A stretch of 33,406 bases of DNA from a virus. A program made the translations under genes and the position numbers. Each line of letters opens with the position of its first letter. Position 1 is the first letter of the stretch. Below are positions 15,739 to 26,698 of the stretch, one piece after another. The stretch lies in IMG/VR virus record IMGVR_UViG_3300046371_000357, positions 1-33,406 of that record; one strand, given 5' to 3'. The notes below the pieces were generated by a model that saw nothing but the letters and a program-made list of their open reading frames with translations, had not been told where the DNA came from and did not search any database.

Positions 15739-15815
15739 CTGCCCTTAGCTCAACTGGATAGAGCAACAGCCTTCTAAGCTGTAGGTTCCAGGTTCGAGTC
15801 CTGGAGGGCAGGCCA
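15739..15815 (+). tRNA. tRNA-Arg (anticodon TCT)
   Basis: Complete 77-base cloverleaf with encoded CCA. Acceptor CTGCCCT/AGGGCAG pairs fully, D-stem GCTC/GAGC, anticodon stem ACAGC/GCTGT with loop CTTCTAA, T-stem CCAGG/CCTGG with TTCGAGT. It reads AGA, a codon frequent in this AT-rich genome. Confidence 0.95.
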
Positions 15816-15820
15816 ATAAC

Positions 15821-15896
<76 letters not shown>

Positions 15897-15897
15897 T

Positions 15898-15971
15898 AGG
15901 GGAAAAGTGTTACGGTAGCACGGCTGGCTCCAACCCAGTAGGACAGGGTTCAATTCCTTGTTCCCCTGCCA
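15898..15971 (+). tRNA. tRNA-Trp (anticodon CCA), somewhat degenerate
   Basis: A 74-base cloverleaf with encoded CCA. Acceptor AGGGGAA/TTCCCCT, D-stem GTGT/GCAC, anticodon stem GCTGG/CCAGT with loop CTCCAAC (anticodon CCA, codon TGG), T-arm CAGGG-TTCAATT-CCTTG. Position 8 is A instead of the near-universal U, the D-loop is short, and two stems contain G-T pairs. It may be slightly decayed or merely divergent. Only one base separates it from the preceding tRNA. Confidence 0.82.
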
Positions 15972-15978
15972 ATTTTAT

Positions 15979-16055
15979 CGGGGCTTGGCGCAGTCTGGTA
16001 GCGCACCTGGTTTGGGACCAGGGGGTCATAAGTTCGAATCTTATAGCCCCGACCA
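15979..16055 (+). tRNA. tRNA-Pro (anticodon TGG)
   Basis: Complete 77-base cloverleaf with encoded CCA. Acceptor CGGGGCT/AGCCCCG, D-stem GCGC/GCGC, anticodon stem CCTGG/CCAGG with loop TTTGGGA, T-stem ATAAG/CTTAT with TTCGAAT. The C1-G72 pair is typical of bacterial tRNA-Pro. It reads CCA. The late promoter octamer begins two bases after its CCA. Confidence 0.95.
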
Positions 16056-17245: not shown

Positions 17246-17407
17246 TTGACATTGAGCTTTCACGGTAAAACTATTGAGCAGTGTGAATGGGTGTTGAAAT
17301 ATTTTGGCACACCTGAAATGCAGGAATATTATAAAGATAATGTAGGCTTTCAAAGATGGTTACAAGAATGCCGAGATGTAATAGCGGCTAGAAGACTTGA
17401 TTACTGA
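17246..17407 (+). CDS. Small 53-residue protein with TTG start (tentative)
   Basis: An open frame between two genes encodes a well-composed 53-residue protein (TLSFHGKTIEQCEWVLKYFG, PEMQEYYKDNVGFQRWLQEC, RDVIAARRLDY). The only starts are TTG codons at 17246 and 17252, with GGAA about 9 bases upstream of the first. It overlaps the oxygenase gene by 11 bases. Otherwise this 150-base gap would be the largest unexplained space in a genome with almost none, which supports the call. Confidence 0.5.
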   Translation: MTLSFHGKTIEQCEWVLKYFGTPEMQEYYKDNVGFQRWLQECRDVIAARRLDY

Positions 17408-18260
17408 ATTGAATATTGATCTAGATAATATCTCACCAGATATTTGTCAAGAAGTTTTTGAGACATTAAAGAAGGACTTGGTTGTTGTTATAAAACGCCA
17501 GTCCACTGATGCCTACAAGTTTGCTCGTCTTGTCTATAGTATGAGCCACATTGCAAACTGGCAACAACTTACCTGGGACACAGACGGTAACTATATTGGG
17601 TCACCCAAGGAATATCCTAATCCTTGGGAACAAGAAAATTTTCCTGTCCAAAGAGTTACAGGTGAGCAAAAGGAAGGTGAGTATACAGGTATCTTCCCTG
17701 TAGGTAAACTGGACTGGCATTCTAACTTAAATGGACCAACGCGAGCAGATGGAGTAGCCCTGCAAGGTATTCATGGTGTAGAAGGCACCACAACATCTTG
17801 GCTAAATACGTCAGTTGCTCTTAAGGAAATGCCAGAAGAATTGTATAATAGACTAAAGGACAAACATTGTTCCTACTATTATAATATGGAAAACTGGTCA
17901 GATATTAAAAACAAAAAACAACTAGAGTTTATGCGTAAAAATCGAGAAGAATATAAAATGTTCATTCTTCAGGAAAATATTGCAGGAACAAAAGGTTTGT
18001 ATTTTTATGTTAATAATGATTTAAAAGTTGAGGGTGACGAGGACTTATTGTTTGATTTACAGGAATATTTGTTTCAGGAAAAATTTATTTATCATCACCA
18101 ATGGGAAGTTGGCGACATCGTATTAAGTGACCAACTACTTACCTTACATAAAAGACAATTAAAAGAAGATTCAATCTTTGAAAAGAGACTTCTTCATCGT
18201 CTAACTTTTCCTATCAGTAATCAATCAGAAAATTTTATTTTGGAGAACAATCTTGTCTGA
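17397..18260 (+). CDS. TauD/TfdA-like oxygenase with altered metal triad
   Basis: A 287-residue protein with the TauD-family layout: VVVIKRQ near the start, PVGKLDWHSNLNG where the HxD/E metal motif is expected, the long TSWLNTSVALKEMPEELYNRL segment typical of TauD, a distal His region (DIVLSDQLLTLHKRQ, H251) and RLLHRLTF with Arg264/Arg268 for 2-oxoglutarate. The first metal pair reads H108-S-N110, with Asn replacing Asp/Glu. It is therefore either a variant enzyme or inactive. Start TTG 17397. Substrate unknown. Confidence 0.75.
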   Translation: MITELNIDLDNISPDICQEVFETLKKDLVVVIKRQSTDAYKFARLVYSMSHIANWQQLTWDTDGNYIGSPKEYPNPWEQENFPVQRVTGEQKEGEYTGIFPVGKLDWHSNLNGPTRADGVALQGIHGVEGTTTSWLNTSVALKEMPEELYNRLKDKHCSYYYNMENWSDIKNKKQLEFMRKNREEYKMFILQENIAGTKGLYFYVNNDLKVEGDEDLLFDLQEYLFQEKFIYHHQWEVGDIVLSDQLLTLHKRQLKEDSIFEKRLLHRLTFPISNQSENFILENNLV

Positions 18261-18537
18261 TGATATAGCAACCTTAAAAAAGAATCTTTTTATCATATCT
18301 AAAAAATATGATTTCCTAGGTTACGACTTTACAAGTATCCGAGATCAATTGCATACAGCTAAAGCAACTATTGCCTTGCTTGAACATGATATAGAAGTTT
18401 ACAAGAAAGAAATTGTAAACATGAGAGAACGTGCTGAGGAAGAACTTAAAAAAGCCGCACACGAAGCATATGAGGCAAAACTCGAAGCCAAACATGCTAA
18501 ACGTGAATTGAATCAACTGAAAAAACAAACAAAGTGA
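18253..18537 (+). CDS. Coiled-coil protein
   Basis: A 94-residue protein with a long coiled coil from about residue 30 (LHTAKATIALLEHDIEVYKK) through an Ala/Glu/Lys-rich C-terminal helix ending RELNQLKKQTK. It begins with TTG 18253, with GGAG about 8 bases upstream, overlapping the TauD-like gene by 8 bases and the SGNH gene by 4. Probably a small structural or adaptor protein. Confidence 0.66.
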   Translation: MSDDIATLKKNLFIISKKYDFLGYDFTSIRDQLHTAKATIALLEHDIEVYKKEIVNMRERAEEELKKAAHEAYEAKLEAKHAKRELNQLKKQTK

Positions 18538-19199
18538 TTTATGTTTTTGGTGACAGCTGGGCATATGGTTATGGTTTGCCTGACCGAAATAAAAACTTTG
18601 GCTCCCTCATAGGCCAATACTATAGTCAGCCTGTAGAAAACTATAGTGTTCCTGCAAGTTCAATGGGACACATTACATATGAGTTTATGAAACACGCTGA
18701 AAAATTTGAACCAGGTGATAAGGTTATTGTAATATTACCTCCCGATGTCAGATGGTATCAAATTAACAATGGACACGCTTCTAGTCTTTTTAATGGTATG
18801 GAACTATATGAGGATTGGTTAGAGAAACACGGCACAGAAGAGTGGTTTACATACAATCATAGTATGTTTATCTATACTTTAATAAACATCTGTAAACAAA
18901 AATCGGATATATTAGAAGATGTTGGACTTGTATTAGCGCACAATTATGGCAAGTTAAATTTACATTCTTATTTTCCTATAGACGATTATTTTCTTGACAA
19001 AGAACATAGTTTATGTTACCTTTTAACTGGTAAGGAATGGTGGGAAACAAATTACGACATTAATATTGATAATCATATGTCTGTAATTGAACACCCTAAT
19101 TTTTTACCTAATGATAATCACCCTAATGAAACAGGGCACAAATTGATAGCAGATATGATAGTGAGGAGATTAGAGAATGGATTATCACAGACTAATTAA
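18534..19199 (+). CDS. SGNH/GDSL-family hydrolase
   Basis: A 221-residue protein with the SGNH nucleophile block at the very start (VFGDSWAYGYG, Ser8), a Gly block (VPASSMGH) and a C-terminal block NDNHPNETGH with Asp194 and His196 as the rest of the triad. SGNH enzymes cleave esters, often acetyl groups on polysaccharides. In a phage such an enzyme could trim host surface glycan or act on modified sugars; the neighbouring TauD-like gene gives no decisive clue. Start GTG 18534 overlaps the coiled-coil gene; no clear ribosome site. Confidence 0.83.
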   Translation: MIYVFGDSWAYGYGLPDRNKNFGSLIGQYYSQPVENYSVPASSMGHITYEFMKHAEKFEPGDKVIVILPPDVRWYQINNGHASSLFNGMELYEDWLEKHGTEEWFTYNHSMFIYTLINICKQKSDILEDVGLVLAHNYGKLNLHSYFPIDDYFLDKEHSLCYLLTGKEWWETNYDINIDNHMSVIEHPNFLPNDNHPNETGHKLIADMIVRRLENGLSQTN

Positions 19200-19314: not shown

Positions 19315-20565
19315 ATGAAAACACTATCCTCATATATTGCAGAAGATGCACAGGGTAAAAACCTACACTTAGAACACATTGAAGATGATATTCTAAACTT
19401 TGGTGTTGTAGGTGCCCGCGCTTCTATAAATTTTTTGAGATCCTTGAGGGATATGCTTTCGGGGAGTTCTCGCTCATCCATAAACATGACTGTGAAATGG
19501 GATGGTGCGCCCGCAATATTCGCTGGAGTAGATCCTAGTGATAACAAATTTTTTGTAGCAAAGAAATCAGTATTCAATAAAACACCCTTACTGTATAAAA
19601 CAGCAAGTGAGATTGATACTGATACAAAGTTACCACAATCATTGAAAAGTAAATTTAAAACCGCCCTTACTGAGTTCAGTAAGTTAGGTATCAATGGTGT
19701 TTTGCAAGGCGATCTTATGTTTACTAAGAGCGATTTGCAGTCGGAAACGATTGATGGTCAACGTTATACAACTTTCCAACCTAATACTATTGTCTATGCA
19801 GTGCCCTCGGGCTCGCCTCTTGATATAAAAATTAAACAAGCAAAGATAGGTATAGTTTGGCATACATCGTATTCTGGCAAGTCTCTCCAAGACATGAGAG
19901 CATCTTTCGGTGTAAACATAAAACCGCTAACAAAGCCATCCTCTGTATGGATGGATGATGCGTCTTATCAGGATATATCAGGACAGGCAACCTTTACTAA
20001 AACTGAAACGGATAGTATTACTCGGATCCTTTCAAGTGTAGGTCTGCAATTTAGAAGAATATCCTCTGCACAACTAAACACATTTCTTGCAATGCAAAAT
20101 TCATTTACAGGAAAGATGATAGGTGCAAGTTTTAAGACATATAATAACAGTAAAGTTCGTGAAGGACAAAAAGTAACCAACCCCAAGTCACATGCTCAGG
20201 GCTATGTCAAATGGGTTGAGAATAAATTTCAAACCGAAATTGATAAACTAAAAACAGAAAAGTCTAAAAGTGCATTAGAACTAAAAATGAAAGAAACTGT
20301 GAAGGTTATTTCATCGCAGGTTAGTTTGATTGAAAATGTTACAGCATTTCAGTCAATGATTATTGACGCAAAAATGATAATTATAAACAAACTAAATACT
20401 GTTAAGAGTATTGGAACGTTTGTTAAAACTGACAATGGCTTTAAAGTGACAACACCTGAAGGCTATGTTGCTATTGACAGAATCGAAGGCAATGCAGTTA
20501 AGTTGGTTGATAGAATGGAATTTAGTTACAATAATTTCACAGCAATTAAGGCGTGGGACAAATGA
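19315..20565 (+). CDS. DUF6267-like protein with ligase-type nucleotidyltransferase motifs
   Basis: A 416-residue protein of a marine-phage family I recall as DUF6267. It contains motifs in the order of DNA/RNA ligase adenylation domains: KWDGAPA (61-67; KxDG, Lys61 would be the AMP site), GVLQGDLMF (128-136), IVWHTSYSG (180-188), PEGYVA (381-386; like motif IV EGxV), and VKLVDR (395-400; like motif V). It begins MKTLSSYIAE|D, like the T4 capsid targeting peptide MKTYQEFIAE|A, ending in a (L/I)xE prohead-protease site. It may thus be a packaged ligase-like enzyme. The next gene overlaps at ATGA. Confidence 0.72.
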   Translation: MKTLSSYIAEDAQGKNLHLEHIEDDILNFGVVGARASINFLRSLRDMLSGSSRSSINMTVKWDGAPAIFAGVDPSDNKFFVAKKSVFNKTPLLYKTASEIDTDTKLPQSLKSKFKTALTEFSKLGINGVLQGDLMFTKSDLQSETIDGQRYTTFQPNTIVYAVPSGSPLDIKIKQAKIGIVWHTSYSGKSLQDMRASFGVNIKPLTKPSSVWMDDASYQDISGQATFTKTETDSITRILSSVGLQFRRISSAQLNTFLAMQNSFTGKMIGASFKTYNNSKVREGQKVTNPKSHAQGYVKWVENKFQTEIDKLKTEKSKSALELKMKETVKVISSQVSLIENVTAFQSMIIDAKMIIINKLNTVKSIGTFVKTDNGFKVTTPEGYVAIDRIEGNAVKLVDRMEFSYNNFTAIKAWDK

Positions 20566-21149
20566 GTAAGACTGTAATATTTGCATTTGGTAGAATGAAC
20601 CCACCTACAAATGGTCATGGCAAACTTATTGCCAAGGTAAAACGCATGGCGCAACAACAAAGAGCTGACCATTTAATTGTTGCCAGTCATTCTTTTGATA
20701 AACTAAAAAATCCACTTGAACCAAGTAAGAAACTGAAACATTTACAAGCAATGTTTCCAGGCACAAACTTTGCAACATCTGATAAAACCAATCCTAATTT
20801 TATTAAACAACTTGGATTATTGACAGGCAAATATGATAACGTAATTATGATTGCTGGTTCGGATAGAGTTCAAGATTTTCAACGTTTGTTAGATACATAC
20901 AATGGCAAAGACTTTACTTTCAAATCTGCTAAAGTAGTTTCTGCAGGTGAACGTGACCCAGATGCTGAAGGTGTTGCGGGAATCAGCGCAAGTAAAATGC
21001 GCTTGTATGCTAAAAATAACGAATTCAGTAATTTTAAACGAGGATTGCCTACAGGTTATCGAGGTGCAAAACAACTTTTCAAAGATGTCAGAGCTGGCAT
21101 GGAATTGAAAGAAACATATAAATCATTCTCGCAGTTCTTGAGAGACTAA
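20562..21149 (+). CDS. NMNAT/cytidylyltransferase-like nucleotidyltransferase
   Basis: A 195-residue Rossmann-type nucleotidyltransferase: FGRMNPPTNGHGKLI (TxGH, residues 16-19), IAGSDRV (98-104) and GISASKMR (140-147; like the ISxTxxR motif). These motifs are those of NadD/NadR-like NMN adenylyltransferases and relatives, so NAD or nucleotidyl transfer is likely. ATG 20562 overlaps the previous stop (ATGA); the upstream in-frame GTG 20553 is less likely. The C-terminal end KETYKSFSQFLRD resembles the SFxxF(L/I) targeting peptides of neighbouring virion proteins, with LKE|T as a possible cleavage site. Confidence 0.83.
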   Translation: MSKTVIFAFGRMNPPTNGHGKLIAKVKRMAQQQRADHLIVASHSFDKLKNPLEPSKKLKHLQAMFPGTNFATSDKTNPNFIKQLGLLTGKYDNVIMIAGSDRVQDFQRLLDTYNGKDFTFKSAKVVSAGERDPDAEGVAGISASKMRLYAKNNEFSNFKRGLPTGYRGAKQLFKDVRAGMELKETYKSFSQFLRD

Positions 21150-23290: not shown

Positions 23291-23447
23291 AAGATTATAT
23301 CGCAGACTATATAGACTAAAACAACGCAATACCCCGATAACAAGAGATGAACGTAATAATCTTATAAATAGTATAGGATTATACAAACTTGTGTCTAATC
23401 GTTCTAAATCGGTTGACCGCATTATACAAGAGCTGTTAAATGGATAA
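23274..23447 (+). CDS. 57-residue basic helical protein
   Basis: A short protein rich in Arg/Lys (ISKRLYRRLYRLKQRNTPIT, ending SVDRIIQELLNG). It overlaps the previous gene by 17 bases and the kinase-like gene by 8. A late promoter octamer is embedded within it (23363-23370). Basic composition suggests DNA or RNA binding. No family recognised. Confidence 0.6.
   Translation: MDRISKRLYRRLYRLKQRNTPITRDERNNLINSIGLYKLVSNRSKSVDRIIQELLNG
23363..23370 (+). promoter_or_regulatory. T4-type late promoter inside a small gene
   Basis: An exact TATAAATA within the 57-residue gene, 70 bases before the ATG of the kinase-like gene at 23440. It would make the large virion protein independent of upstream transcription. 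Confidence 0.55.
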
Positions 23448-26313
23448 AAGTTTATCAGATTTTATTCCTTTAGAAGAAGGTGTAAATGACCCAGGTATCT
23501 TCAAGGCAGTATTCCTTGCGGGCGGACCTGGATCTGGTAAATCTTTTATGGTAGGACGCACCGCATTGCCTGCACTAGGCCTGAAAGTAATTAACTCAGA
23601 TACAAATTTTGAAAATGCTTTGCGTAGAGCAAATATGGAACCTACTCCGGAAAATATTATGTCGGATGCAGGTCAGTCTATTCGCGCAAAAGCAAAGTAT
23701 CTCACACAAAAGCAATTGAGCTTGGCAGTAATAGGCCGTCTTGGTTTGGTCATTGATGGCACAGGCAAAGATTACGATAAGATTGCAAGGCAAAAAGCAA
23801 CTCTTGAAAACATCGGTTATGAATGTATGCTTCTGTTTGTAAACACTGATTTGGAAACAGCACAAGCAAGGAACCAAAAAAGACCGAGAACATTACCAGA
23901 TAATATTGTCACCAGAATGTGGCAGGATGTTCAAAATAATCTCGGTAAGTTTCAAAATGCTTTTGGTAATAATCTGCTTATTGTGGACAATAGCGAAGGT
24001 GTAAATGCAGAGGCGGCATCATTGTCTGCTTATAGAAAAATTACTGCTTGGGTATCAACACCTCCTCGTAGTTACATTGCACAACGTTGGATGAAAAAAC
24101 AAAGGAATATGGCAATGCACGAATCCTTAAAAGACTGGTTTGGTAAAGGCAAAAAAGGTGATTGGGTTCGTGTAGGAACCGATGGTGAAATTAAAGGTGA
24201 CTGTGCGAGAGACCCAGGTGAGGGTAAACCTAAGTGTATGCCTCGCAGTAGAGCTCATAGTATGGACAAAGAGGATAGAGCAAAGTCTGCAAGACGTAAG
24301 CGGCGTAAGGATCCTGATGTAGATAGACCAGGAACAGGTAATAAGCCTATCAATGTAAAAACTGAGGCTATTGACAGACACGGTGTTTCCAAAGACGCAA
24401 CAAAAGCAGAACTGAAAAAAATTAGATCCAATCCTAAATCTAGTAAGGGTGCCAAGGATCTCGCACATTTTAAACTGAATATGCACCATAATGAAGAAAA
24501 TATTGACGAAAAATGCTGGGACTCACATAAGCAGGTAGGCATGAAGAAAAAGGGCGGCAAGATGGTTCCTAATTGTGTGCCTAAAAACGAGGACCTCGAA
24601 CCAATGCCTAAACTTTCTAAACTAAAACCTGCTAAATCTCCCGAGCAGAAAAAACTTATTAAGGGTAGAGAGAAAGATAAAGTTTTCTCTAGTATTGCTG
24701 TTGAACAAACAGAACTAGAAGAAATTTCGATGTCAGATAGAGTCAAGGCTAAAACTCTTTACAAAGATAAGTATGCAAAACTAACTAGAGCAGTTATCTC
24801 TGATTACAGAAAAGATAAGCAAAGAACAGGCACAGCAAGGCATGGTGTTTATTACTATGCCGGTGAAGTTCTCCGCAAACTAGGGGGTCGCAGTCAACTG
24901 AATTCTAGAATACTTGGTGATATGGCCGCACAAAAGTTGGGTGAAGAATATAAGTATGAATGGGGAACACCTGAAGGCACACAATATATGAAAGCTGTTA
25001 CACCAGGTGAGCCAGGCAAAACTACTAAGAAAAATAAAACGAAATCCAAGAATCATTACAAAGCAGTAGATCAAATGACGGAAGATGTTGTAACAGAAGC
25101 AGTTGAATTGTTGGAGAAAAGTAAACCAACAAATCCAGGACTATGGAGCAGAGCAAAGTCTGCCGCAAGAGCAAAGTTTGATGTGTATCCTTCTGCTTAT
25201 GCCAATGGTTGGGCTGTTCAATGGTATAAAAAACGAGGCGGCGGTTGGAGATCTGTAAAAGAAGGTGAAGAGCCAGAAGGCGATATCTTTGCAGAAATGT
25301 ATAAGTCACCTGCACACAAAAAACTACAAGGGTTTATGAACAAAAATCGCAAATCTTTCGCATATCAAAATAAAGTAAGAAGCATGGGCGGAACTCCTTT
25401 GAAACCAGGCGAACAAAATAAAATGGTTTCCACAAAAGAAGCGACAGATGACGAGGAAAATTTTAAACCTCACATGATGTATGACCCTAAAACAGGCAAG
25501 GCTGTTAAGGCAAAGAAATATGCCGACCATATTGCATTGGGTAAAAAAGGTTATACACATGATAAGCCTGAAATGAAAGAAGAAAATGGTATTGAATGTC
25601 AGGACGGGCATTATTATTGTCGCCAACGTAAGGCATGTGTTCCAATACCAAAAGGTTATAGGGATCGCGGAGACGGATTTATTGTAAAAGAAGAAGTTGA
25701 TGACGCAGAATATCTACAAAATCTTCATCAGATTGAAGTTCATGGGTTTTCAGATAATGAACTTAAAGCAATGGAACTTGAAGTTGATCAAATGACATTT
25801 GATGATTTTGTTGATCTCGGAATGTATGACGAAGAAGAACTTGAAACTGTAGAAGCAGATGTTAGCGACTATGAGGGTGACATTAACGTAACAGAAGTAT
25901 TGTCAATCCAAGGTAGAATGAAACGCCGCTTTACTGCAAGACGCAACAGACAAAAACTTAAGGTTGCTCGTATGCGTAGAGCTCGTATGGCATCAAGTCC
26001 TGATAGAATCAAACGCCGTGCCGCTCGAGGTGCTCGTAACATGTTTAAGAAACGTCTTGCTCGAGGCAGAGATGTTGGTGCAATGCCGCCTGCAGAGAAG
26101 GCTCGTATTGAAACAATGTTGAAGCGTTTCCAACCAATAGTTAGTAAACTTGCACAACGTATGATTCCCACAGTAAGACGTGCAGAAATTGGCAGACTAA
26201 AAAAACGTGGGGCAATGCAGTCTCAAAAAGCCAAGAAGTTTAAGATTTCTAAGGGCGGTTCTGCTTCCAAGTATAAGGCTAAGAAGTTTAAAATTAAAAA
26301 GGCTAAGAAGTGA
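23440..26313 (+). CDS. Multidomain virion protein with N-terminal zeta/P-loop kinase domain
   Basis: A 957-residue mosaic. Residues 1-14 (MDKSLSDFIPLEE|G) look like a capsid targeting peptide. About 21-220 is a zeta-toxin/polynucleotide-kinase-like P-loop domain: GGPGSGKS (28-35), INSD (51-54), VIDGTGKD (104-111). About 228-310 resembles DUF5872 (SLKDWFGKGKKGDWVRVG...CARDPGEGKPKCMP). Then come CWDSHKQVGMKKKGGKMVPNCVP, a segment SDRVKAKTLYKDKYAKL..., KPTNPGLWSRAKSAARAKFD, a four-Cys ECQDGHYYCRQRKACVP motif, and a highly basic C-terminus from 820. Such modules recur in marine-phage head proteins. Probably a head-interior protein carrying a kinase; phosphorylated substrate unknown. Confidence 0.8.
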   Translation: MDKSLSDFIPLEEGVNDPGIFKAVFLAGGPGSGKSFMVGRTALPALGLKVINSDTNFENALRRANMEPTPENIMSDAGQSIRAKAKYLTQKQLSLAVIGRLGLVIDGTGKDYDKIARQKATLENIGYECMLLFVNTDLETAQARNQKRPRTLPDNIVTRMWQDVQNNLGKFQNAFGNNLLIVDNSEGVNAEAASLSAYRKITAWVSTPPRSYIAQRWMKKQRNMAMHESLKDWFGKGKKGDWVRVGTDGEIKGDCARDPGEGKPKCMPRSRAHSMDKEDRAKSARRKRRKDPDVDRPGTGNKPINVKTEAIDRHGVSKDATKAELKKIRSNPKSSKGAKDLAHFKLNMHHNEENIDEKCWDSHKQVGMKKKGGKMVPNCVPKNEDLEPMPKLSKLKPAKSPEQKKLIKGREKDKVFSSIAVEQTELEEISMSDRVKAKTLYKDKYAKLTRAVISDYRKDKQRTGTARHGVYYYAGEVLRKLGGRSQLNSRILGDMAAQKLGEEYKYEWGTPEGTQYMKAVTPGEPGKTTKKNKTKSKNHYKAVDQMTEDVVTEAVELLEKSKPTNPGLWSRAKSAARAKFDVYPSAYANGWAVQWYKKRGGGWRSVKEGEEPEGDIFAEMYKSPAHKKLQGFMNKNRKSFAYQNKVRSMGGTPLKPGEQNKMVSTKEATDDEENFKPHMMYDPKTGKAVKAKKYADHIALGKKGYTHDKPEMKEENGIECQDGHYYCRQRKACVPIPKGYRDRGDGFIVKEEVDDAEYLQNLHQIEVHGFSDNELKAMELEVDQMTFDDFVDLGMYDEEELETVEADVSDYEGDINVTEVLSIQGRMKRRFTARRNRQKLKVARMRRARMASSPDRIKRRAARGARNMFKKRLARGRDVGAMPPAEKARIETMLKRFQPIVSKLAQRMIPTVRRAEIGRLKKRGAMQSQKAKKFKISKGGSASKYKAKKFKIKKAKK

Positions 26314-26420
26314 AGCCTAATAAATATTTAAAGAAGCCTAAACTAAAGGATATTCCGAAAGAGGAAGCAATGAAAAGGCTTTGGAAAGACAATAACAAAG
26401 TAGGGTCGGGTAAGAAATGA
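26310..26420 (+). CDS. 36-residue basic protein (GTG start)
   Basis: A short Lys-rich protein (KPNKYLKKPKLKDIPKEEAM, ending KDNNKVGSGKK) starting with GTG 26310, which overlaps the kinase-like stop, and ending with an ATGA overlap into the next gene. The double overlap supports it. The composition matches neighbouring head-interior proteins, so it may be part of the same set. Confidence 0.55.
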   Translation: MKPNKYLKKPKLKDIPKEEAMKRLWKDNNKVGSGKK

Positions 26421-26698
26421 AAACGTTTGTAGATTTTATTAATGAAGATATGTCAGGCATGACAGTAAAAGGTGGTCACAAACTTCCCGTATCAAAGGGT
26501 GCCGGCCTTACCAAAAAGGGCGTTGAAAAATATCGCCGTCAAAATCCAGGCAGTAAATTGAAAACTGCCGTCACTACACCTCCTAGCAAATTAAAGCCAG
26601 GCAGTAAGGCAGCCAAAAGACGTAAATCATTTTGTGCAAGATCCAGAGGCTGGACAGGTGAACGAGGTAAAGCTGCCAGACGTAGATGGAATTGCTAA
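26417..26698 (+). CDS. DUF6321-like basic protein with capsid-targeting-like N-terminus
   Basis: A 93-residue protein. Residues 1-10 (MKTFVDFINE|D) match the T4 capsid targeting form MKTYQEFIAE|A, with INE as a prohead-protease site. The rest (KGAGLTKKGVEKYRRQNPGS, then LKTAVTTPPSKLKPGSKAAK, RRKSFCARSRGW, RRRWNC) matches a family I recall as DUF6321, highly basic and with two Cys. Likely an internal head protein that binds DNA. It overlaps the preceding small gene. Confidence 0.75.
   Translation: MKTFVDFINEDMSGMTVKGGHKLPVSKGAGLTKKGVEKYRRQNPGSKLKTAVTTPPSKLKPGSKAAKRRKSFCARSRGWTGERGKAARRRWNC

Follow-up and report, generated by a model that had tools for sequence, protein, structure and literature searches.

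The RNA ligase of Naegleria carries AMP on K170, holds metal via water through D172, E227 and E312, and touches the phosphate with K326 (PMC9931718). Human C12orf29 was placed beside it when a predicted model gave a DALI Z of 7.4 to the Naegleria ligase, and the protein was then proved to be an active RNA ligase (PMC9931718). In cyanomyoviruses, homologues of the ligase gp30 have not been found, and a review from 2010 regarded an unrecognised distant homologue as possible but true absence as more probable (PMC2984593). In the T4 internal head protein IPIII, the first ten residues serve head targeting, with residues 4 and 7 needed for targeting and residues 8 and 10 for cleavage (PMC9026906).

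Consider now a gene in the virus record IMGVR_UViG_3300046371_000357 of IMG/VR, of which positions 1 to 33,406 were analysed; this whole stretch of 33,406 nucleotides is here called the window. The 416-aa open reading frame that begins with ATG and occupies exactly 19315-20565 on the + strand is a member of PF19782/DUF6267 (E 2e-106, 357 bits against a gathering cut-off of 27), and it also matches PHROG 455, a group of unknown function. The preliminary description of this DNA had treated the family as one of unknown function, and this agrees with PF19782, which has no assigned function, and with PHROG 455. A literature search gave no paper mentioning DUF6267, and no earlier assignment of a ligase-type function to it was found in the literature searched.

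DUF6267 is the only profile that the window protein matches above cut-off: the ligase profiles PF09414, PF09511 and PF01068 are unmatched, and matches to SWI2_SNF2, Cut12 and DUF1971 were weak, under the Pfam cut-off, and disregarded. The NCBIfam search gave nothing near any cut-off, and PADLOC gave no defence-system match. When phmmer and hmmsearch are run against PDB sequences no ligase is found, and the assignment made here therefore rests on fold and motifs. When the family is aligned by hhalign to a T4 Rnl2 profile the result is not significant (E 0.2-0.35), with motif IV alone aligned. Within the covalent nucleotidyltransferase superfamily DUF6267 forms a new and divergent family, outside PF09414, PF09511 and PF01068. 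It occurs in two forms, a long one of about 400 aa, to which the window protein belongs, and a short one of about 300 aa, and most of the difference is due to a helical stretch that separates motif IIIa from motif IV.

The preliminary description had read the ligase motifs I, III, IV and V from the protein in this order, and the order is as claimed: KWDG at residues 61-64, QGDLM at 131-135, PEGYVA at 381-386 and VKLVDR at 395-400. It had also singled out AxA after KxDG, which is right for the window protein (KWDGAPAIF); short members have KIDGAPAIV in this position. The ordered motif pattern appears in 42 of 200,000 shuffles of the window protein, a rough guide only because the pattern was devised after the sequence had been seen, and from this follows that conservation within the family is the better test. 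Relatives were gathered from viral contigs, with six queries, and from phage records, and were aligned as A2 (95 sequences, identity down to 27%), A3 (38 short-form members) and A5 (30 mixed members, 26-75% identical to the window protein). The residues K61, D63, G64, Q131, D133, E382, G383, V385, K396 and R400 are the same in every row of the three alignments (95/95, 38/38 and 30/30), so that the catalytic-motif residues are invariant over 130 distinct sequences, down to 26% identity. This includes Lys61, and loss of this lysine in relatives had been named beforehand as a result that would count against the ligase reading. G132 is present in every row of A2, with exceptions in four rows of A3 and one row of A5. 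Further residues invariant in A2, A3 and A5 are K84, Y161, H183, Y186, N278, K353, F403 and N407, together with H18, H21 and D24 near the N-terminus, where E23 occurs in 93 of the 95 rows of A2 and in all rows of A3 and A5. The motifs depart from the classical pattern: the acidic residue of motif III is invariant as Asp133, where classical ligases have Glu, the Arg of motif Ia is replaced by a Lys (K84, placed by spacing), and motif V keeps K396 and is without the second Lys of KxK. The positions of the motifs and of neighbouring features are collected in the table.

Table. Positions of predicted features of the DUF6267 gene and its partner gene in the window.
Feature	Position	Strand	Remarks
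DUF6267 protein, 416 aa	19315..20565	+	predicted adenylation domain, covalent nucleotidyltransferase (ligase) superfamily, with helical insertion
N-terminal peptide MKTLSSYIAE, T4 capsid-targeting-like	19315..19344	+	predicted prohead-protease cleavage after E10; disordered in model
Family signature H18xxH21xE23D24	19366..19386	+	start of nucleotidyltransferase domain; from conservation
Motif I, K61-W-D-G	19495..19506	+	Lys61 predicted nucleophile; K61, D63, G64 invariant
K84, in place of motif Ia Arg (T4 Rnl2 R55)	19564..19566	+	invariant; equivalence by spacing only
Motif III, Q131-G-D133-L	19705..19716	+	Q131 and D133 invariant; model strand 129-137
Motif IIIa-like, N157-T-I-V-Y161	19783..19797	+	from conservation; model strand 160-164
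H183-T-x-Y186, family-specific	19861..19872	+	from conservation
Helical insertion, residues 229-363, between motifs IIIa and IV	19999..20403	+	about half this length in short-form members
Motif IV, E382-G-Y-V	20458..20469	+	E382, G383, V385 invariant
Motif V, VK396LVDR400	20497..20514	+	K396, R400 invariant; 14 residues beyond E382, as in Naegleria RNA ligase
NMNAT/cytidylyltransferase-like HxGH enzyme	20553..21149	+	listed start GTG, ATG at 20562 also possible; adjoins DUF6267
C-terminal peptide YKSFSQFLRD of the NMNAT-like protein	21117..21146	+	resembles capsid-targeting peptide

Two AlphaFold2 models were made, one of the window protein from A2 (mean pLDDT 88, pTM 0.84, residues 1-17 disordered) and one of a 304-aa short form from A3 (pLDDT 91.5); the alignments behind them share only three rows. 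When the window model is compared with known structures by VIA-align, the Naegleria RNA ligase has Z 7.7 over 183 residues, T. brucei REL1 has Z 7.6 over 194, and T4 Rnl2 and Rnl1 have Z 6.5. With the short-form model the best Z is 9.2 over 180 residues, to the Naegleria gruberi RNA ligase, and the best 50 listed matches are all nucleic-acid ligases. After the Naegleria enzyme, the lists continue with trypanosome REL1, T4 Rnl1, T4 Rnl2, fungal Trl1, archaeal RNA ligases and DNA ligases. A Z below 8 may reflect a common arrangement, but the short form exceeds 8 and its list of matches is uniform. DnaK also has rows in the list for the window model, with only about 70 helix residues aligned, and these were disregarded. 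In Foldseek searches against the PDB no E-value falls below 0.01 for either model; the top 27 rows for the short-form model are all ligases, and the best-ranked ligase for the window model is the NAD+ ligase adenylation domain 3jsn (E 0.58). A predicted fold that lacked an adenylation domain would have spoken against the earlier reading of fold and lysine as those of the ligase superfamily. Both models contain the domain, and that reading is borne out, with RNA ligases of the Naegleria/REL/Rnl2 type and T4 Rnl1 nearest, ahead of DNA ligases. A C-terminal OB domain with motif VI, as in ATP DNA ligases, is absent from both models, and the window protein ends 16 residues past the motif V region. 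On these models it is very probable that DUF6267 has a covalent-nucleotidyltransferase adenylation domain.

The correspondence with the Naegleria ligase extends to the active site, in which K170, D172, E227, E312 and K326 correspond, in the same order, to K61, D63, D133, E382 and K396 of DUF6267, and the spacing from motif IV to motif V is 14 in both proteins. By extrapolation from the ends of the structural alignments, motifs IV and V should lie at most one residue from E312 and K326 of the Naegleria enzyme, and, likewise extrapolated from the N-terminal end of the alignment, K33 of the short form would fall on K35 of T4 Rnl2. The predicted position of Lys61 in the pocket is in this way judged from alignment end points and motif order rather than from a residue-level superposition.

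We consider it probable, given these models and the invariant motifs, that DUF6267 is a divergent family of polynucleotide ligases in T4-like phages of marine bacteria (Kyanoviridae and relatives). In such an enzyme, Lys61 would attack ATP (or NAD+), with D63, D133 and E382 holding metals and K396 the phosphate, to give lysyl-AMP. The AMP would then move to the 5'-phosphate of a nucleic acid, after which a 3'-OH would close the break. The variable helical insertion probably takes the place of the OB or C-terminal domain by which known ligases hold their substrate.

How widely the family occurs is seen from tblastn searches, which find DUF6267 in 469 phage records: 371 with Synechococcus names, 61 with Cyanophage names and 24 with Prochlorococcus names, in addition to pelagiphages, methylophages and a few others. 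A search of the same kind for the replicative helicase gp41 gives 376 Synechococcus-named and 61 Cyanophage-named records, and since the two sets of counts are about equal, the family is present in almost all T4-like cyanophages. Two loci, L082 and L083, are in metagenome bins named Sphingobacteriales and Euryarchaeota and appear to be phage contigs that were placed in one bin with a host genome. In phage metaG-MbCM1 (NC_019443, 145353-146249) the DUF6267 gene lies under a feature named 'NrdB ribonucleotide reductase A subunit', which seems to be an annotation error. As for other ligases, a profile search finds a PF01068 DNA ligase in 4 of 29 DUF6267-positive records (DLP_6 and the records of L020, L264 and L274) and an NAD ligase in none of the 29; PF09414 is matched in none of 11 and PF09511 in 2 of 21 such records searched. 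When a related phage DNA ligase is used as query, no cyanophage name is among the ten commonest names, the smallest count being 14. Most T4-like cyanophages are without any other recognised ligase.

These observations bear on the idea that DUF6267 is the missing replicative DNA ligase of the T4-like cyanophages and a functional stand-in for gp30. The family is near-universal in cyanophages, which are without gp30, and in several phages its gene is just downstream of uvsX-gp41, adjoining or near a cytidylyltransferase/NMNAT-like gene. However, a conventional ATP DNA ligase is also present in four records, including that of L020, which is 66% identical to the window protein. This co-occurrence weakens a simple story of gp30 replacement, and the presence of both ligase types in some non-cyanophage relatives argues against one universal role as gp30 substitute. 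Furthermore, the host ligase can stand in for the phage ligase (PMC2984593), the closest structures are RNA ligases, and the head-cargo tag discussed below would point to delivery at entry and not to work at the fork. A gp30 substitute is therefore possible but rather unlikely.

A different proposal is that the protein is an active covalent nucleotidyltransferase but no ligase, which passes lysyl-AMP (or GMP) to a host protein or a small molecule, or which takes part in RNA capping. Such an enzyme would share the superfamily fold, and the missing OB or C-terminal domain downstream, the unusual motifs III and V and the unique invariant residues H18, H21, H183, Y186, N278 and K353 would suit it; T4 also offers, by annotation, a precedent in Alt, a packaged protein-modifying ADP-ribosyltransferase. 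Since the nearest structures are polynucleotide ligases, and the sole capping enzyme in the short-form Foldseek list stands at rank 38 with E 1.4, we hold this proposal to be unlikely. The preliminary description had suggested, from the unusual AxA after KxDG, that the activity may differ, for example as protein or RNA adenylation; the present results speak neither for nor against such altered chemistry.

The gene that adjoins DUF6267 in the window encodes an NMNAT-like protein, to which NMNAT models give only weak matches. The two genes lie within 400 nt of each other at 144 of 237 loci and nearby at the rest. They align to successive parts of one profile, PHROG 455, and in S-PM2 they are fused into a protein of 591 aa. 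The setting in the window is T4-like, with the same gene pair, UvsX and a DnaB-type helicase. Just upstream of DUF6267 the window has genes for a TauD-like dioxygenase (17397-18260, +) and a weakly GDSL-hydrolase-like protein (18534-19199, +), a position occupied in other phages by PHROG 1462 or by other genes without known function. The PHROG 1462 family (460-500 aa, without Pfam match) is directly upstream of DUF6267 in several cyanophages, for example at L091:2478-3974 and L084:2538-3932; the upstream gene in the window does not belong to it. Four tRNA genes (Arg-TCT, Thr-TGT, Trp-CCA and Pro-TGG) are clustered at 15739-16055 (+).

From the gene pair comes a further suggestion, that DUF6267 depends on NAD+ and that the adjoining NMNAT-like enzyme reconverts the released NMN to NAD+. 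With this would agree the adjacency of the genes, the presence of the NMNAT-like enzyme in cyanophage virions (PMC3037559, PMC9602691, PMC10665884), the single Lys of motif V, and the fact that for the window model Foldseek ranks 3jsn, an NAD+ ligase, first among the ligases. However, no NMN-binding domain Ia as in LigA is recognisable in DUF6267, the best VIA-align matches are ATP-dependent ligases, and the NMNAT substrate of the neighbour is putative in view of the weak model matches, so that NAD+ dependence is doubtful. It is, like the gp30 substitute, a narrower version of the polynucleotide-ligase explanation, and the probability given to either overlaps with that of the latter.

The N-terminus of the window protein, MKTLSSYIAED, may be compared with MKTYQEFIAEA of T4 IPII/IPIII (from the T4 record) and MELITELFDED of Alt, and its residues fit the capsid-targeting positions 4, 7, 8 and 10. 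A strict form of the tag pattern is found in 122 of 304 long-form and in 0 of 81 short-form DUF6267 ORFs, and under a generous rule it is found in 93 of 1180 other ORFs; the loci behind these counts are redundant, and the figures are therefore suggestive. The NMNAT-like neighbour has a tag-like C-terminus in the window clade (..ETYKSFSQFLRD, ..FANFLKEQQ) and a tag-like N-terminus in other clades (MKKFSEIIEARGD.., MINSFSQYLVEEER..). The tag-like peptide thus occurs at one end or the other (window 20553-21149, +; loci L003-L063, L082, L083 and L087), as if a packing tag could be attached to either terminus. Virions of S-SM1, S-SCSM1 and S-CREM2 are known to contain this neighbour (PMC3037559, PMC9602691, PMC10665884). 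The DUF6267 protein of S-CREM2 (gp87), an untagged short form, is not in the S-CREM2 virion table, and S-CREM2 gp160, a virion protein whose gene lies close to that of the cytidylyltransferase, was checked as a DUF6267 candidate and does not belong to the family. Judged by its N-terminal residues, the DUF6267 protein of the window may be head cargo. Two other genes of the window have similar beginnings. One, at 26417-26698 (+), encodes a 93-aa DUF6321 protein with the capsid-targeting-like start MKTFVDFINEDMSG, possibly a second head cargo or a core protein. The other, at 23440-26313 (+), encodes a protein of 957 aa with the tag-like start MDKSLSDFIPLEE; its N-terminal domain resembles AAA_33/Zeta-toxin kinases (Pfam E 1e-9 and 5e-9), and it also has a DUF5872-like stretch and a basic C-terminus.

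That DUF6267 has kept the ligase fold without the catalytic activity and serves in the head or as a scaffold, as the capsid-targeting-like peptide of the window clade could suggest, is very improbable, since all predicted catalytic residues are invariant in tagged and untagged members alike. If DUF6267 is instead a polynucleotide ligase, its route to the substrate can be sketched with less certainty than its chemistry. The window-clade protein might enter the prohead by its N-terminal capsid-targeting-like peptide, be cleaved after E10, and reach the host cell along with the DNA and the NMNAT-like neighbour; its early role could then be to seal nicks in the incoming DNA or to repair RNA or tRNA. 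Taken one step further, marine T4-like phages would pack and inject, by T4-style peptides, a ligase-type enzyme and an NMN/NaMN adenylyltransferase-like enzyme as a two-enzyme kit for DNA or RNA repair at entry, possibly an NAD+-dependent ligase that recycles its own NMN. We offer this scheme as speculation, and as a whole it is improbable.

T4-like cyanophages are among the most abundant marine viruses. A near-universal protein with the anatomy of a ligase, annotated as hypothetical, would fill the reported DNA-ligase gap, or else reveal an enzyme of RNA repair or protein modification, and the packaging tag, if borne out, would make DUF6267 a delivered enzyme like T4 Alt.

Among described systems, T4 Rnl2 and the trypanosome RNA-editing ligases (PF09414) resemble DUF6267 in fold (Z 6.5-7.6), in motif I on K35, in a similar spacing from motif I to III, and in EGYV at motif IV. 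Compared with T4 Rnl2, DUF6267 has K84 for R55, Asp for E99 and one motif V Lys for K225 and K227; the C-terminal domain of Rnl2 is missing, and PF09414 is unmatched. With ATP DNA ligases of the T4 gp30 type (PF01068) it shares the adenylation fold (short form to 6dt1 Z 5.7, human Lig1 about 6), but it is without their OB domain and motif VI, and some phages have both kinds together. In contrast to classical ligases in general, it has family-specific invariant residues and no domain after motif V. The T4 internal head proteins IPI-IPIII and Alt resemble it in the tag; the body of the cargo is unrelated, and short-form members are without the tag. Compared with the Naegleria gruberi RNA ligase (NgrRnl), DUF6267 has the Asp of motif III, a large helical insertion ahead of motif IV and sequence homology too low to detect. 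NgrRnl has an N-terminal OB domain, which both DUF6267 and C12orf29 are without, and it was by the same kind of evidence as that used here for DUF6267 that C12orf29 was recognised.
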